Positions 3 to 17,218 of a stretch of 21,009 nt of DNA are shown here, one piece after another. This DNA comes from a virus. Below the pieces are notes generated by a model that was not told the origin of the DNA, did not search any database, and was given only the letters and a program-made list of their open reading frames with translations. The stretch covers positions 1-21,009 of the IMG/VR virus record IMGVR_UViG_3300021963_000781, one strand, 5' to 3'. The translations under genes were made by a program, and so were the position numbers. Within the stretch, counting starts at the first letter, position 1, and every line of letters starts with the position of its first letter.

Positions 3-137
3 ATTGCCACAGCACAGAGTCTGGGATTTAATCACGCATCAACTATCAAGATGATGCTCAACACTCGTCCAGGCGTTGGTAACAACAAAGTAGAAGGACG
101 TGAAAAGTGGGAGGGAGTATATGTATTCACTAAATAA
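3..137 (+). CDS. C-terminal end of an unrecognised gene (cut by left edge)
   Basis: The frame starting at base 3 is open from the window edge to a TAA at 135-137 and gives 44 residues ending in EKWEGVYVFTK. The other two forward frames have stops within the first 55 bases. The next gene starts inside it at ATG 121, behind a strong ribosome binding site (GGGAGG), so the two overlap by 17 bases. This fits the tight coupling seen through the rest of this strand. The fragment is too short to assign to a family. Its real start lies outside the window. Confidence 0.5.
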   Translation: MATAQSLGFNHASTIKMMLNTRPGVGNNKVEGREKWEGVYVFTK

Positions 138-471
138 CGTGGTTATGACTGAAACAGAATATGATCACATCCATAGCAGTAAGTATCACTACTGGGCATG
201 GGTAGTGAAGTTCTATCTAACACACCCAGGTTGCCTATGGCGTGACCTGTGGTGGGCTTGGATGCCAGGTGAGATCATACGCTTCAACAGCACCAGTGAT
301 TGGGATCGTAGAGACTTTGAACGTTGGTTATGGAATAACGTTGGCATCAAGAACATCAGCTGGGGCTTGCGCATCGACAACTGGATTAAAACAGAAGGCT
401 ATGACTTTGCTATCAAAGTACGAGTAGGTAAACGTAAACATATATCACACCTAGCATTGATTGTCCGATGA
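121..471 (+). CDS. Small phage protein, W-L...G family, member 1
   Basis: A 116-residue protein rich in Trp. ATG 121 is preferred because GGGAGG (109-114) sits six bases upstream; an in-frame GTG at 100 has no comparable site. It carries FERWLWNNVG near residues 67-76. Its C-terminus, ending LALIVR, follows a strand-turn-strand pattern like the F-x-L-K ends of its neighbours. These similarities suggest it is a diverged member of the small-protein family that fills this strand up to 3140. Its stop overlaps the next start in ATGA (468-471), which implies translational coupling. No known function is recognised. The position in a chain of tiny genes fits an accessory or early host-takeover role, which is inference only. 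Confidence 0.75.
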   Translation: MYSLNNVVMTETEYDHIHSSKYHYWAWVVKFYLTHPGCLWRDLWWAWMPGEIIRFNSTSDWDRRDFERWLWNNVGIKNISWGLRIDNWIKTEGYDFAIKVRVGKRKHISHLALIVR

Positions 472-737
472 CCAATAACAATAAATTATATGCTACACCC
501 ACACTAAGACTAGATACAGTAGTAGGTGGGCAGACTTGGTGGCCTAGATTATTCAAAGCCCGTGAAGAATATTTTGGTCTTAGTGACCTCAACACTGCTA
601 CCATCGAAACATTCCAGTCGTGGTTAGAAGATGAATATGGTTTAAGATTGGTATTAGATAATTCAGGTGCTATCACTGATCAATATAAAATCATCGATGA
701 ACAGAAATATATTGTATTTGGATTGAAATTCTCGTGA
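468..737 (+). CDS. Small phage protein, W-L...G / FxLK family, member 2
   Basis: An 89-residue protein starting at the ATGA overlap with the previous gene. It contains FQSWLEDEYG around residues 47-56, followed by a C-terminal half ending in FGLKFS. The same arrangement (W-L-x4-G, then a terminal F-x-L-K-aromatic) recurs in several neighbours. The stop is shared with the next start in GTGA (734-737). No signal peptide or membrane segment is visible. The function is unknown. The shared motifs point to gene duplication and rapid divergence. Confidence 0.75.
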   Translation: MTNNNKLYATPTLRLDTVVGGQTWWPRLFKAREEYFGLSDLNTATIETFQSWLEDEYGLRLVLDNSGAITDQYKIIDEQKYIVFGLKFS

Positions 738-928
738 AAATAAAGATTAATGGACTATATCCTCAACAGAAAAGATGGTTGAGAGAATACATAGGTGAAC
801 AAGAATATTACCTACATACAGAGTTTGGTGGGCAAGGTTGGAATTTCCGATGGGAACAAAACAGTTATCAGTTGTATATTGCTGATGATCGATTAGCAAC
901 ATTATTTTTATTAAAGTTCGGACAATGA
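734..928 (+). CDS. Small phage protein, FxLK family, member 3
   Basis: A 64-residue protein that starts with GTG inside the GTGA overlap with the preceding stop. It has RWLREYIG near its N-terminus and ends in LATLFLLKFGQ, the clearest form of the family's C-terminal signature after members 4 and 8. It is the shortest member and seems to keep only the W-L core and the final strands. The downstream junction is ATGA (925-928). The function is unknown, and no targeting signal is seen. Confidence 0.7.
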   Translation: MKIKINGLYPQQKRWLREYIGEQEYYLHTEFGGQGWNFRWEQNSYQLYIADDRLATLFLLKFGQ

Positions 929-1152
929 CTGTTAGATTACAAACTATTGAATACTGGCCGTCAGCATATCTAGATTATGAGGCCACATGGCATAAGCACG
1001 GTATATCTAGTTTTGAGCGGTGGCTGGAGTTGCACAGAGGATGTCATGTTAGTTTTGCAGAGTTTTCTGTTAGTGCGGCATTTGTATTCGAACGTGACGA
1101 GGATGCCACAGCATTTATTTTAAAGTATGGAAAAAGAAATGGAACTAGATAA
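925..1152 (+). CDS. Small phage protein, W-L...G / FxLK family, member 4
   Basis: A 75-residue protein starting at an ATGA overlap. It has FERWLELHRG near residues 30-39 and DATAFILKYGKR near the C-terminus, so both family motifs are plain here. FERWL is shared exactly with the first member at 121-471. A short basic tail (KRNGTR) follows the signature. The next gene starts 26 bases before its stop. The function is unknown. The family assignment rests on motif spacing seen by eye, not on an alignment score. Confidence 0.75.
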   Translation: MTVRLQTIEYWPSAYLDYEATWHKHGISSFERWLELHRGCHVSFAEFSVSAAFVFERDEDATAFILKYGKRNGTR

Positions 1153-1384
1153 ACAAACAGTTTGGGATATATTAACCACAGATCGTAATGAGGACTTTAA
1201 GGAATATCGCAGACGCCATCGCACCACGTGGTTGACCAAAGAGCGTGAGATCTTATTGATAGCTAATATGGAAACCAGCCATATCATCAGTTGTATCAAT
1301 ATGCTGGAACGATTAGAACAACAGTATACTTTTGCCTACGGTGGCCTAATAGAAGAATTAAGAAAAAGAGGAGTCCTTTCTTGA
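1127..1384 (+). CDS. Hypothetical small charged protein
   Basis: An 85-residue, highly charged, mostly helical-looking protein. The start is uncertain: ATG 1127 overlaps the previous gene by 26 bases, and an in-frame ATG at 1139 is an alternative. The middle (DFKEYRRRHR) is basic. The end reads as an amphipathic helix containing LERLEQQYTFAYGGL. It lacks the F-x-L-K ending of the neighbours, so it is probably a different family inserted in the chain. The stop overlaps the next gene's start in TTGA (1381-1384). Confidence 0.65.
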   Translation: MEKEMELDKQTVWDILTTDRNEDFKEYRRRHRTTWLTKEREILLIANMETSHIISCINMLERLEQQYTFAYGGLIEELRKRGVLS

Positions 1385-1608
1385 AAATCACCATGCAGGA
1401 GTTTGAGGAATTTGAAAAACAATTTATGTTTGAGATATTAAAGAATCCCGACTATCGTCTAGGACAAGCGTTTAGTAATACGTTTCCAGAAATCGTTAAT
1501 GCCCTGTCCTCCGATGGTGACATTGGATATAGACAACAACAATGGTTGTGGGAGGCACGTTCACGTGATCGTGTATTAGAACTTATAGATTGGTATATCA
1601 TAAAATGA
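1381..1608 (+). CDS. Hypothetical small protein (TTG start)
   Basis: A 75-residue product if translation starts at TTG 1381. That start is supported by AGAGGAG (1367-1373) seven bases upstream and by a 4-base TTGA overlap with the preceding stop. An in-frame ATG at 1393 is the alternative. The sequence is acidic and aromatic near the N-terminus (QEFEEFEKQF) and ends in LIDWYIIK, which loosely recalls the hydrophobic-Lys ends of its neighbours but does not match them. The stop overlaps the phosphoesterase start in ATGA (1605-1608). The function is unknown. Confidence 0.65.
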   Translation: MKITMQEFEEFEKQFMFEILKNPDYRLGQAFSNTFPEIVNALSSDGDIGYRQQQWLWEARSRDRVLELIDWYIIK

Positions 1609-2411
1609 AGATAGCATTGGGTAGTGACCTACACTTAGAATTTGGCGCATTAGAACTACATAACACTGAGAATGCTGACGTATTGGTATTGAGTGGTGAT
1701 ATCTGTGTGGCTAAACACCTGAACGGTGTGCATCACCACGATGCCCGCTATAGGAAGTTCTTTCGTGAATGCAGTGAACGCTTCCCTCAAGTTATTTACG
1801 TGTTAGGTAATCATGAACACTACGCTTATGACGTACAATATACCGCTGGGCATTTAAAGCGTGAACTCGTTTACGATAATCTACATATCCTAGATGATGA
1901 AACCGTGGACATTGGGGGATATACTTTTATCGGCTCTACCTTATGGACTAATATGAACGAAGAAGATAGTCTTACCATGTATCATGTGACTACTATGATG
2001 AATGATTATACCAGTATCAAGAACAGTGCCAGGACCTTAAATGAGTGGGGTAAGCCTGCACGATTAACACCAGAGGATACTGTCGTGTTCCATAACAAGA
2101 GCATGGATTATATCAATCACATTACCTACAATCGTCCTAACTATAAGTTCATCGTAGTCGGACATCATTGCCCTAGCTTTAAGAGTGTGCATCCTAAGTA
2201 TGCTAAAGATACTATCATGAATGGTGCGTTCGCCAGTGACCTAGATGACTTTATCGCTTATCGTCCACAGATTCGTTTATGGACGCATGGACATACACAT
2301 GAGCCATTTGACTATAACATCGGTGAAACACGTGTGGTGTGTAATCCCCGCGGCTATATAGGTCATGAACATCGTGCTGATAATTTTCAACTACAGTATA
2401 TCGACCTATGA
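1605..2411 (+). CDS. Calcineurin-like metallophosphoesterase
   Basis: A 268-residue protein with the full calcineurin-like phosphoesterase motif set in order: D8-x-H10 in GSDLHLE, GD at 31-32, GNHE at 68-71, GHH at 186-188 and HGHTH at 228-232. These residues coordinate a two-metal centre in the family, which hydrolyses phosphomono- or diester bonds in nucleotides, nucleic acids or proteins. The substrate cannot be read from sequence. ATG 1605 is chosen over an upstream in-frame TTG (1590) because it forms an ATGA overlap and begins directly with the first strand (MKIALGSDLH). No signal peptide is seen, so it should be cytoplasmic. It is the only recognisable enzyme in the small-gene chain. 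Confidence 0.93.
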   Translation: MKIALGSDLHLEFGALELHNTENADVLVLSGDICVAKHLNGVHHHDARYRKFFRECSERFPQVIYVLGNHEHYAYDVQYTAGHLKRELVYDNLHILDDETVDIGGYTFIGSTLWTNMNEEDSLTMYHVTTMMNDYTSIKNSARTLNEWGKPARLTPEDTVVFHNKSMDYINHITYNRPNYKFIVVGHHCPSFKSVHPKYAKDTIMNGAFASDLDDFIAYRPQIRLWTHGHTHEPFDYNIGETRVVCNPRGYIGHEHRADNFQLQYIDL

Positions 2412-2671
2412 AAGCCGTAATACTTAAACATCGTGAATGGGATCAGATCTTTGCTAAGATTAAATCTGAGTATGCGGCGACTCCTAGTGTATACCTCATG
2501 CGTAATAAAATGCGTGAACAGCTGGGATTTACAGTGCGCGAGCACGTAAAATATAATGAACAAGATGTTGAATATGATAGCAATTCTGATTGGCGTGACT
2601 ATCGTAGCCAAATACATATTGACTTTTACGACGAAACCGCAAGAACTATGTTTGTATTGAAATACCTATGA
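2408..2671 (+). CDS. Small phage protein, FxLK family, member 5
   Basis: An 87-residue protein starting at the ATGA overlap with the phosphoesterase stop. The N-terminal half is basic and helical. The C-terminal half reads as strands and ends in TARTMFVLKYL, matching the family's A-T-x-F-x-L-K-aromatic ending. The W-L...G core is not clear here. The next gene again starts in an ATGA overlap (2668-2671). The function is unknown. Confidence 0.72.
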   Translation: MKAVILKHREWDQIFAKIKSEYAATPSVYLMRNKMREQLGFTVREHVKYNEQDVEYDSNSDWRDYRSQIHIDFYDETARTMFVLKYL

Positions 2672-2907
2672 TAGAATATAAAGATTGGCCACCACCAGAA
2701 GATTGGACCAGTGTAAAACTCAGCTGGGATTGGGTCATGCAGCATCACACACATAATACCAATGACATATACAACTGGGTCATACGTGCACCAGGAGGGC
2801 GTTTCCATATTAGTGGGTATAATGTTGGTAAACCTGGGGAAGGATTCGATTATCGTTTTGAGCGGCCAGCTGATGCCACATATTTTAGTTTGAACTTACC
2901 CCGATGA
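2668..2907 (+). CDS. Small phage protein, FxLK-like, member 6
   Basis: A 79-residue, Trp-rich protein with several Trp-Asp and Trp-Val pairs near the N-terminus, YNWVIRAPGG in the middle, and an end (ADATYFSLNLPR) that keeps the A-T-x-F-x-L spacing while losing the Lys. It is the most diverged of the probable family members. It starts at an ATGA overlap and ends in one (2904-2907). The function is unknown. Confidence 0.7.
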   Translation: MIEYKDWPPPEDWTSVKLSWDWVMQHHTHNTNDIYNWVIRAPGGRFHISGYNVGKPGEGFDYRFERPADATYFSLNLPR

Positions 2908-3140
2908 GCATATTAGACGGCGCCAATGGACGTAGATTTATCGTAGTCAGCCCTGAAGAGGTAGGTTGGGACCACTATACAGTAGTCATAGCAGATTTTG
3001 CTTGGTGGATACAGAATGAACGAGGTATATATACATGGATGGAGGCGCATTTGCCTAAAGGACGCATGCATCATGAAGGTATGGTCATCAGCATGCCCAA
3101 TGGAGATTTAGTAACAGCATTTTTACTCAAATGGGGATAA
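2904..3140 (+). CDS. Small phage protein, FxLK family, member 7
   Basis: A 78-residue protein starting at an ATGA overlap. It contains YTWMEAHLPKG in the middle and ends in VTAFLLKWG, so both family signatures are present. The start of the following lipoprotein gene lies ten bases upstream of its stop, inside the codons for the terminal Lys-Trp-Gly. No targeting signal is visible. The function is unknown. Confidence 0.74.
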   Translation: MSILDGANGRRFIVVSPEEVGWDHYTVVIADFAWWIQNERGIYTWMEAHLPKGRMHHEGMVISMPNGDLVTAFLLKWG

Positions 3141-3511
3141 GACTCTTAATCATTAGTTGTTTATTTCTGCAAGGTTGTGTTACCATGATAGCGGGTAACA
3201 TGGGCGCAGGTGCCACTGTGGTAGCTACTGCTGAAACTGTGGATAAGGCCAAGACAGCGGCAGATGTGGTAGCCTACGGAACTACAGGCAAGAGCCTGAC
3301 TGATCATGCTCTAGATGCTGTTACAGGCAGAGACTGCAATTTGATACACGTGTTTAATAAGTATCGCAAGGTATGTAAAGAAAAGATGCCTGATCTCAGC
3401 ACTAAAGAAAAGATCCGAGCATTCCAAAAAAGCAAAGGTCTAGAACCTACAGGAACTATAGGACCTCTGACACGCATAGCTATATGGCGTATCAAGAACG
3501 AATTAGATTAG
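3131..3511 (+). CDS. Small lipoprotein with peptidoglycan-binding-like C-terminus
   Basis: A 126-residue protein. Residues 1-16 form a short signal peptide (MGIRLLII...) ending in the lipobox LQGC, which predicts lipidation at Cys16 and membrane anchoring facing the periplasm. A Gly/Ala/Thr-rich stretch follows, then GKSLTDHALDAVTGRDC, a pattern I recall from small proteobacterial periplasmic lipoproteins. Residues about 90-118 (KIRAFQKSKGLEPTGTIGPL and the TRIAIW that follows) fit the PG_binding_1 helical repeat. The protein is presumably placed in the host envelope, perhaps for superinfection exclusion or envelope change during lysis; this is inference. It is too long and wrongly composed for a classic Rz1 spanin. 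It overlaps the previous gene by 10 bases and the convergent gene by 3 at their stops. Confidence 0.82.
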   Translation: MGIRLLIISCLFLQGCVTMIAGNMGAGATVVATAETVDKAKTAADVVAYGTTGKSLTDHALDAVTGRDCNLIHVFNKYRKVCKEKMPDLSTKEKIRAFQKSKGLEPTGTIGPLTRIAIWRIKNELD

Positions 3512-12851: not shown

Positions 12852-12880
12852 AGTATATATGACTATTTCAGCTATGTCAA
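12852..12880 (-). promoter_or_regulatory. Sigma-70 promoter before the nuclease gene
   Basis: The minus strand has TTGACA (12875-12880), a 17-base spacer and TATACT (12852-12857), which is close to the bacterial consensus. The -35 box includes the stop codon of iscA. The expected transcription start is around 12845, and the nuclease ATG begins at 12844, so transcripts would be leaderless or nearly so. The short gap has no ribosome binding site. Confidence 0.75.
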
Positions 12881-13197
12881 ACAGTAAATGATTCTCCGCA
12901 ACCACAACGTGCTTTTTCGTTAGGGTTTTGGAATTCAAAGCCTTCGTTAAGACCTTTTTTGGTATAGTCGATCTGCATGCCTTCTAAGTATACCAGATCT
13001 TTTTTATTGATGACGAGTGTAACACCACGATCTTCTATCTCGAGATCACCCTCAAACAGTTTATCAGCGAATTCTAATACGTAAGCAAAGCCACTACATC
13101 CTGAAGTTCGCACACCAATACGCATGCCAATGCCTTTGCCGCGATGGTATAAGGCATCTTGCATTTTTTTGCTGGCAGTTTCGGTAAGCGAGATCAT
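12877..13197 (-). CDS. iscA: A-type iron-sulfur carrier, IscA-like
   Basis: A 106-residue HesB/IscA-family protein with the three ligand cysteines: Cys34 in RTSGCSGFAYVLEF, and Cys98 and Cys100 in RCGCGESF. The residues around them (GLNEGFEFQNPN) are those of the IscA subtype as I recall it from E. coli. It would receive iron-sulfur clusters from IscU and deliver them to target proteins in the cytoplasm. The start ATG overlaps the stop of the DUF1289-type gene in ATGA (13194-13197), which couples their translation. The length is normal and no key residue is missing. Confidence 0.95.
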   Translation of the reverse strand: MISLTETASKKMQDALYHRGKGIGMRIGVRTSGCSGFAYVLEFADKLFEGDLEIEDRGVTLVINKKDLVYLEGMQIDYTKKGLNEGFEFQNPNEKARCGCGESFTV

Positions 13198-13364
13198 TTG
13201 TTTTTATTCTTTTCTATTATCCTATCCCATACAGATTTTCTTTGTTCATCTGTTAATTCGTACCATTCGAAGGCTTCATCTTGTGTGCGGAAACACCCGC
13301 TACACTCTCCACCTATGAATTGACATACACCTATGCAGGGACTCTCAATGGGGTTGCGTTTCAT
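13194..13364 (-). CDS. DUF1289-type four-cysteine small protein
   Basis: A 56-residue protein. It carries SPCIGVCQ, then GGECSGCFRTQDEAFEW, then TDEQRKSVW. This is the DUF1289 pattern (as in E. coli YdhL): two Cys three residues apart (10 and 14), then Cys21 and Cys24, followed by C-x-R-T-x-D-E and W. The four cysteines could bind zinc or an iron-sulfur cluster, though the family has no established function. It overlaps iscU by 20 bases and iscA by 4 (ATGA), so it sits in the middle of the iron-sulfur operon. The RBS is weak (AAAAAAGA), consistent with coupling to iscU translation. Confidence 0.9.
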   Translation of the reverse strand: MKRNPIESPCIGVCQFIGGECSGCFRTQDEAFEWYELTDEQRKSVWDRIIEKNKNK

Positions 13365-13734
13365 TCTTTTTTCTGTAGTCTGCTATGGCTGATTTGATCG
13401 CATCTTCTGCAAGCACCGAGCAGTGGATTTTTACTGGGGGTAATGCTAGTTCTTCCGCGATCGCTGAGTTTTTAATCTCTTGGGCTTCATCCAAAGTACG
13501 ACCTTTAAGCATTTCCGTGACAAGCGAACTGCTAGCAATAGCACTTCCACACCCATAAGTTTTAAACTTCGCATCTGTTATTATTCCATCATGCACTTCG
13601 ATTTGCAGTTTCATCACATCACCGCAGGCCGGTGCACCTACCATACCTGTTCCTACATCTGGACTATTCTTGTCCAAACTACCCACATTACGAGGATTTT
13701 CGTAATGGTCTAGAACCTGTTCTGAATAAGCCAT
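13345..13734 (-). CDS. iscU: Iron-sulfur cluster scaffold protein IscU
   Basis: A 129-residue IscU that looks full length and very close to the E. coli protein as I recall it (YENPRNVGS, GAPACGDVMKLQI and KTYGCGSAIASSSLVTE are shared). The cluster ligands Cys37, Asp39, Cys62, His104 and Cys105 are all present. The HscA recognition motif LPPVK (98-102) is intact, so it could still work with host HscA/HscB chaperones and the host cysteine desulfurase IscS; neither gene is in this window. It has GGAG seven bases before its ATG and is the first gene after a strong promoter. The close match to bacterial IscU points to host-to-phage transfer. Confidence 0.97.
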   Translation of the reverse strand: MAYSEQVLDHYENPRNVGSLDKNSPDVGTGMVGAPACGDVMKLQIEVHDGIITDAKFKTYGCGSAIASSSLVTEMLKGRTLDEAQEIKNSAIAEELALPPVKIHCSVLAEDAIKSAIADYRKKNETQPH

Positions 13735-16443: not shown

Positions 16444-16737
16444 TTAGAATGTATAACTTGCTACAGTTGTTGTTGCTACTGCCGCGGATAAAATCGCTTC
16501 TAATTGAGTTGCATTAAGGCTTGTTCCTGATACTGCTACACGAAATGATCCGCTACCTGGAGTTCCTAAAATTTCAATTGAGCTAACTGTTTCAATCGCT
16601 CGTATTAATTTTTCAAAATCGCTTTCAGGGGCATCATAACTAACATGGACATTAGCTAATGACACTGTAAACATTGACAAGGCACGACCAGTAGCTTGAA
16701 ATGGACTCGCTCCACCGTTTACTCTTGTTAATGACAT
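16444..16737 (-). CDS. Small late protein, paralogue A of a tandem pair
   Basis: A 97-residue protein, Ser/Thr/Ala-rich, starting MSLTRVNGGA. It shares M-x-LTR-x-NG, an early GR, SYxAxxSDFE, and the I-x-GTPxSG turn with the product of the adjacent gene (16865-17218), so the two are clearly duplicates. No Cys, Trp or catalytic motif is present. It is a single-gene transcription unit: an exact late promoter, a 31-base leader with a 5' stem-loop and AGGAG, and a strong terminator. That arrangement suits an abundant virion protein such as a capsid decoration protein. The function itself is inferred from the layout. Confidence 0.85.
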   Translation of the reverse strand: MSLTRVNGGASPFQATGRALSMFTVSLANVHVSYDAPESDFEKLIRAIETVSSIEILGTPGSGSFRVAVSGTSLNATQLEAILSAAVATTTVASYTF

Positions 16738-16864: not shown

Positions 16865-17218
16865 TTAAGCAAATGTTGCGCCGCTTAGACCGTTGTAGAT
16901 TGTAACTGTTGATGTTAAACCACTAGCTGCATCAATGTCAGTTGCTAACGCTGTAGCAACAGCTGCTGAGCTACCGGTCACGTCAATGATGTTACCTGAA
17001 GGTAGACCTTCAACCATGAATACTGCGTTACCAGATGCTGGTGTACCAACGATAGTAATTGTGCAGTGTTTTTGTAATGCAAATACAACTTGTTCGAAAT
17101 CGCTATCTGCGGCTTGGTATGATGTTTCAATACCAGAAGCTGCAACTTTAACGAATTTAACGTCACGACCTACTTGTTCTGCTGCTACTGCCCAACCGTT
17201 TGTTCTTGTTAATGCCAT
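16865..17218 (-). CDS. Small late protein, paralogue B of a tandem pair
   Basis: A 117-residue protein beginning MALTRTNGWA. It is similar along its length to paralogue A, with SYQAADSDFEQ and TIVGTPASG matching its SDFE and GTPGSG stretches, plus an extra ~20 residues near the C-terminus. It is rich in Ala, Val, Thr and Gly, with a single Cys. It has its own leader with AGGAG and a terminator, so it is also monocistronic. The two copies share even their upstream sequence, showing that the duplication included the control region. A virion surface or head protein is likely, on grounds of expression layout, and no family name is recognised. Confidence 0.85.
   Translation of the reverse strand: MALTRTNGWAVAAEQVGRDVKFVKVAASGIETSYQAADSDFEQVVFALQKHCTITIVGTPASGNAVFMVEGLPSGNIIDVTGSSAAVATALATDIDAASGLTSTVTIYNGLSGATFA

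Follow-up and report, generated by a model that had tools for sequence, protein, structure and literature searches.

Gain, loss and rearrangement of a tiny-protein domain at one site of T4-like phages, and its expansion in jumbo phages

A coupled gene chain of mixed content

The window is the whole 21,009-nucleotide stretch of DNA analysed, a 21 kb IMG/VR record (IMGVR_UViG_3300021963_000781) whose source is a T4-like phage; the nearest cultured match of its NrdB is in Xanthomonas phage X1 (60%). The left 3.5 kb of the window is a co-directional gene chain. In the list below, members are the genes of the protein family defined in the next section, and leave-out E-values come from the profile test described there.

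3..137 (+): C-terminal part of an upstream gene, truncated here, of the 380-aa family o11 (weak similarity to phrog_12517/DNA methyltransferase), which flanks the array in relatives
121..471 (+): gene A, 116 aa, non-member (leave-out E>30), ATGA-coupled to B, with an ortholog in locus L028
468..737 (+): gene B, family M3, ends FGLKFS (leave-out best E 7e-5)
734..928 (+): gene C, family M15, ends FLLKFGQ (leave-out best E 4e-8)
925..1152 (+): gene D, family M19, FILKYG followed by a 6-residue tail (leave-out best E 4e-7)
1127..1384 (+): gene E, non-member, start at 1127 or 1139 (leave-out E>30)
1381..1608 (+): gene F, non-member, matching phrog_6714 at E 1e-6 (leave-out E>30)
1605..2411 (+): gene G, calcineurin-like phosphoesterase of 268 aa within the chain (PF00149 E 1e-8; phrog_1649 E 2e-55)
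2408..2671 (+): gene H, family M1, ends FVLKYL (leave-out best E 3e-6; AlphaFold2 pLDDT 81)
2668..2907 (+): gene I, family M4, ends FSLNLPR (leave-out best E 2e-9; AlphaFold2 pLDDT 89)
2904..3140 (+): gene J, family M2, ends FLLKWG (leave-out best E 9e-7)
3131..3511 (+): gene K, lipoprotein-like with a PG_binding_1 domain (Pfam), a conserved neighbour and non-member (leave-out E>30)

Eight junctions of the chain are exact 4-base overlaps, as a preliminary description of the sequence had noted: 468-471 (ATGA), 734-737 (GTGA), 925-928 (ATGA), 1381-1384 (TTGA), 1605-1608 (ATGA), 2408-2411 (ATGA), 2668-2671 (ATGA), and 2904-2907 (ATGA). The D/E junction is a 14- or 26-base overlap, depending on the choice of start, and the J/K junction is a 10-base overlap. 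The product endings listed in the same description are likewise all present, namely FGLKFS (B), FLLKFG (C), FILKYG (D), FVLKYL (H), FLLKWG (J), FSLNLP (I), and LALIVR (A). Of the W-(L/M/V)-x4/5-G core ascribed to five products, the form W-[LV]-x4-G occurs in A, B, C, D, and I, and J has W-M-x6-G. The reading of the chain as a row of small paralogues holds for B, C, D, H, I, and J and fails for A, E, F, G, and K; A, E, F, and K are set apart by the leave-out test and by profile-profile comparison (hhalign), and G is a phosphoesterase. The chain is mixed, with the latter five unrelated genes coupled into it among the family members.

Elsewhere in the window, positions 12877-13734 (-) carry phage Fe-S assembly genes with Pfam matches to Fe-S_biosyn (IscA-like), DUF1289, and NifU_N (IscU-like). 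The adjacent genes at 16444-16737 and 16865-17218 (-) encode similar small proteins that both start with MxLTRxNG, have no Pfam match and are probably paralogues.

Family membership and predicted fold

Sequence profiles place B, C, D, H, I, and J in a single family of very small proteins that had not been catalogued before, here named the F-x-L-K/R-W family. Their common C-terminal domain reads W-x(4-6)-G ... F-x-[DN]-[EP]-x-D-A-x-x-F-x-L-[KR]-[WYF]-end. The seed profile was built from 58 proteins picked by their ending, and hence self-hits to this profile prove nothing; D and I, which lie outside the seed, were recovered at E 1e-6 and 3e-7. The iterated profile collects 153 members at E<0.01, with the best shuffled decoy not below E 0.26, and a wider set of IMG/VR loci holds 359 distinct members. 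Because members were partly picked by ending, a fair test is leave-one-family-out, in which a protein is matched to the profile after its own family has been removed. All six window families were recovered in this way (best E 7e-5 to 2e-9), the median for the family of B (M3) being only 0.013 and the support for families M7 and M13, outside the six, being marginal. The same search gave no match for A, E, F, or K (all E>30), and A, whose LALIVR ending had been counted as a weaker relative, is ruled out as a member.

Across 207 non-redundant members, the consensus retains W in 90% and G in 92% of rows with a residue at that position, and ends in F-x-[DN]-[EP]-x-D-[AY]-[TL]-x-F (92%)-x-L (88%)-[RK]-[WYF]. 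The family-type ending is found in 92 of 140 members, partly picked by that ending, compared with 0/212 genes in control loci of cultured phages. Profile-profile comparison with hhalign reaches a probability of 96% among member families and at most ∼4% for A, E, F, and K. Two other candidates were set aside. The phosphoesterase ends in F-x-L-Q-Y-I-D-L, which fits a loose version of the pattern and is taken as a coincidence, and a Walker-A motif is not a family theme, the strict pattern being present in 1 of 359 members.

AlphaFold2 models were generated from family alignments for H and I, two of the six window members. The H model (pLDDT 81) is predicted as beta-alpha-alpha-beta-beta-alpha with the F-x-L-K motif inside the last helix; the I model (pLDDT 89) is predicted as beta-alpha-beta-beta-alpha, its last helix spanning D-A-x-x-F and ending within the motif. 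The order beta-alpha(-alpha)-beta-beta-alpha is thus common to both models, and the single small fold suggested in the preliminary description is borne out within this scope of two members in six. The families of H and I belong to separate phmmer clusters. Foldseek searches of the PDB gave no match at E<=0.001, and searches of viral models gave none that was significant, the best being unnamed phage proteins with three Atu_ph07 proteins among those listed. The PII/GlnB and ferredoxin-like proteins share the predicted beta-alpha-beta-beta-alpha order and a weak Foldseek similarity to the H model, but differ in that the similarity stays at E >= 0.07 and a TM of ∼0.4 with no sequence match.

A shared ending could also have arisen as a convergent C-terminal tag on unrelated small proteins. 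Some family pairs, such as M1 and M8, align only over ∼20 C-terminal residues and have very different N-terminal parts, as convergence would predict. Convergence is nevertheless extremely unlikely, as the profile also covers the upstream W...G helix and strand, H and I have the same predicted fold order, and M4 and M6 align by hhalign over ∼60 columns at 96%.

Pfam, NCBIfam, and PHROGs searches with members gave no convincing match, the best being an isolated weak one to phrog_4615 (E 0.0018, one of 55). A PDB sequence search gave no match, and a literature search on the family motif returned only unrelated work.

Arrays in T4-like and jumbo phages

Related T4-like phages have gained, dropped, and rearranged copies of the domain at one fixed position, and in jumbo phages it is expanded. 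The position of the array is shared among relatives, where its usual borders are family o11 on one side and the convergent genes o6/o7 on the other. Copy number at this site is variable, as had been anticipated, with 1-10 members per T4-like locus and reshuffled content, many of the loci being contig fragments. One locus (L027) has two M1 copies in tandem, and six others (L031 and L034-L038) have a related phosphoesterase and zero members. Families M1-M4 are each present in at least 22 loci, with orthologues conserved across divergent contigs. The local expansion of one small fold that had been proposed is therefore supported by profile membership, the H/I fold match, copy-number variation, and the tandem M1 copies. 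The 4-base coupling is far commoner between members than elsewhere on these contigs: with a gene caller that gives no bonus for such overlaps, it is found at 83 of 125 member-member junctions versus 28 of 236 junctions of other small genes (Fisher p 4e-26).

Unrelated cargo also occurs at array sites and includes radical SAM proteins, a tryptophan halogenase, a methyltransferase, and a GIY-YIG-looking gene (L018 4253-5239, L021 1882-2877, L147 5077-6660, L148 3074-5074 and 5961-6740, L143 4560-4865; Pfam matches except for L021 and the GIY-YIG-looking gene). At L142 8468-8803 and L143 2962-3285, two J-type members open with a terminase-like GRQ[ST]GKS, which gives them the look of fusions with a piece of some other gene.

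A search with the family of I extended the set to 91 loci on contigs of up to 344 kb. The 344 kb contig has 22 member genes within its first 20 kb, of which ∼20 are nearly consecutive within 9 kb between a MoxR ATPase gene and a DUF2201/vWA gene. The same MoxR-array-vWA order is present in the other examined jumbo contigs with a vWA gene, and in each of the nine contigs that encode DUF2201_N, members lie immediately upstream of that gene. T4-like array contigs, including one of 149 kb, gave no DUF2201 or MoxR match; these contigs are fragments, so that absence of the pair from the T4-like array phages is not proven.

Detection of members in cultured phages required a wider profile, since tblastn of cultured phages with window-type or jumbo-type members gave no match. 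Sinorhizobium phage Phosso has 41 profile matches at E<=0.1, so that members number ∼40 in its genome. Among 72 proteins of Phosso and the Pseudomonas phage PA5oct, 41 match at E<0.01, 38 of these from Phosso, compared with 0/720 shuffled decoys. PA5oct has three members; one of them is unchanged in Paride and other close relatives by tblastn, which found only identical copies. In PA5oct (EST35_0247/0248; L164 2382-3416), a member lies directly upstream of a metallophosphoesterase gene, as in the phage group of the window. The Agrobacterium phage Atu_ph07 has two members. A profile search found no member at E<0.01 in T4, phiKZ, G, P-SSM2, HTVC008M, or BcepSauron, and the 22 bacterial and 90 archaeal pattern matches included none that was confirmed by tblastn.

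The MoxR AAA+/vWA-metallopeptidase chaperone pair is known from group 2.2 jumbo phages, for which a role in virion assembly was proposed (Iyer et al. 2021, PMC7824862). In jumbo contigs the arrays are flanked by this pair (DUF2201_N and vWA), but the parts of that description available to us do not include a small-gene array, and the pair is undetected in the fragmentary T4-like contigs. The pair is thus already known, and the small-gene arrays go without mention in the literature searched, as far as its accessible parts extend. The array proteins could be clients, adaptors, or co-factors of this pair that dock at the shared C-terminal helix or a nearby acidic residue. The position of the array between the two genes wherever a jumbo contig has both, the nine DUF2201_N contigs, the two Phosso members that follow the vWA gene, the two Atu_ph07 members a few kb downstream, and the proposed assembly role of the pair all agree with such docking. 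We consider it unlikely, given the lack of DUF2201/MoxR matches in the T4-like fragments, the many Phosso sites at which members lie away from MoxR, and the gene order in Atu_ph07, Phosso, and S-TIM5, in which MoxR and the large gene next to it (a vWA gene in Atu_ph07 and Phosso) adjoin with no array between. The operon may also be a mere insertion hot spot, since unrelated cargo is found there too.

Expansion of a small domain within one jumbo phage genome has a precedent in the lineage-specific zinc ribbons of Bacillus phage G (∼35 copies, as mentioned in PMC7824862). The zinc ribbon is a different domain, and phage G has no significant match to the F-x-L-K/R-W family.

Expression, selection, and possible roles

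Strong sigma-70-like promoters (11 of 12) precede none of 131 members individually, but do precede three of four o53 array leaders. All six MoxR leaders scored 10 or 11 of 12, over a scan of 200 rather than 110 bases. TTGAC-N17-TATAAT or a near match precedes three of four o53 leaders, some phosphoesterase copies, and the MoxR leaders. The T4-type late box TATAAATA is found in 0/140 members and is rare everywhere, with 9/597 among non-members. Early expression of the arrays is a tentative reading, because strong sigma-70-like sites also precede structural-side genes (20/348) and the late box is so rare. Median dN/dS values within families are 0.07-0.21, compared with 0.09 for the phosphoesterase, and the members are therefore real genes under purifying selection.

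Minor structural or internal virion proteins, or assembly proteins, from a coupled cluster would be consistent with the assembly role proposed for MoxR/vWA in PMC7824862 and with the many uncharacterised virion proteins of Atu_ph07. Such a role is very doubtful, as members have no late promoter box, their copy number ranges from 0 to ∼40 with no conserved order, and none of the three PA5oct members carries the ESI-MS/MS note that the PA5oct record gives to other proteins.

The preliminary description compared the layout with host-takeover or anti-defence islands. Early-type promoters and variable gene content fit this comparison, while purifying selection within the families argues against a fast arms race; a role in host takeover or anti-defence is compatible with the sequences. 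An anti-defence island, in which each member would block a different host immune protein, would explain the small size, tandem layout, early-type operon, and content that varies between close relatives. It is rather improbable in view of dN/dS values well below 1 and the orthologues of M1-M4 maintained across divergent contigs; PADLOC, a defence-protein library and hence a weak test, gave no match.

T4-type early host-takeover clusters consist of genes that are mostly unrelated to each other. They resemble the arrays in their small, tightly packed genes and probably host-type promoters, but differ in this mutual unrelatedness, and T4 has no match to the F-x-L-K/R-W family.

The explanation that we tentatively prefer, while stopping short of calling it probable, is a diversified early host-reprogramming toolkit of co-translated paralogues built on one scaffold. 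B, C, D, H, I, and J would be paralogues that have diverged from a single small domain of ferredoxin-like type (beta-alpha-beta-beta-alpha), the C-terminal helix of which would carry D-A-x-x-F-x-L-[KR]-aromatic. Each array may form a single polycistronic unit transcribed from upstream sigma-70-like promoters, and its proteins would for this reason be made together, probably early. The shared helix and sheet would provide a constant scaffold on which the variable N-terminal part and loops select the partner. Each duplicate may have taken on a separate target among host or phage proteins, serving as its inhibitor or adaptor, and may afterwards have been kept by purifying selection; such a set of partner-specific copies would constitute the toolkit. 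Several points count against the toolkit: purifying selection does not identify partners, the AlphaFold2 models cover two of six window members, the families of I and H compare weakly by direct hhalign (probability 1.7), Foldseek gave no match at the E<=0.001 threshold, and M7 and M13 are marginal in the leave-out test. A broader and more doubtful possibility is an unrecognised phage superfamily in which one scaffold, in co-translated arrays of up to ∼20 genes (∼40 per genome), would supply evolvable partner-specific adaptors and would be coupled to a MoxR/vWA unfoldase in jumbo phages.

For the majority of genes in large phages, a function has yet to be assigned. Hundreds of unlabelled small phage genes here reduce to one family with one predicted fold, and a fixed site is named at which a gene array expands and contracts among phages. 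In jumbo phages, the arrays are linked to a chaperone pair of unassigned target. The function of the family is open to deletion and pull-down studies because members are present in cultured phages, namely Phosso of Sinorhizobium and, in Pseudomonas, PA5oct and Paride, the last with at least one.
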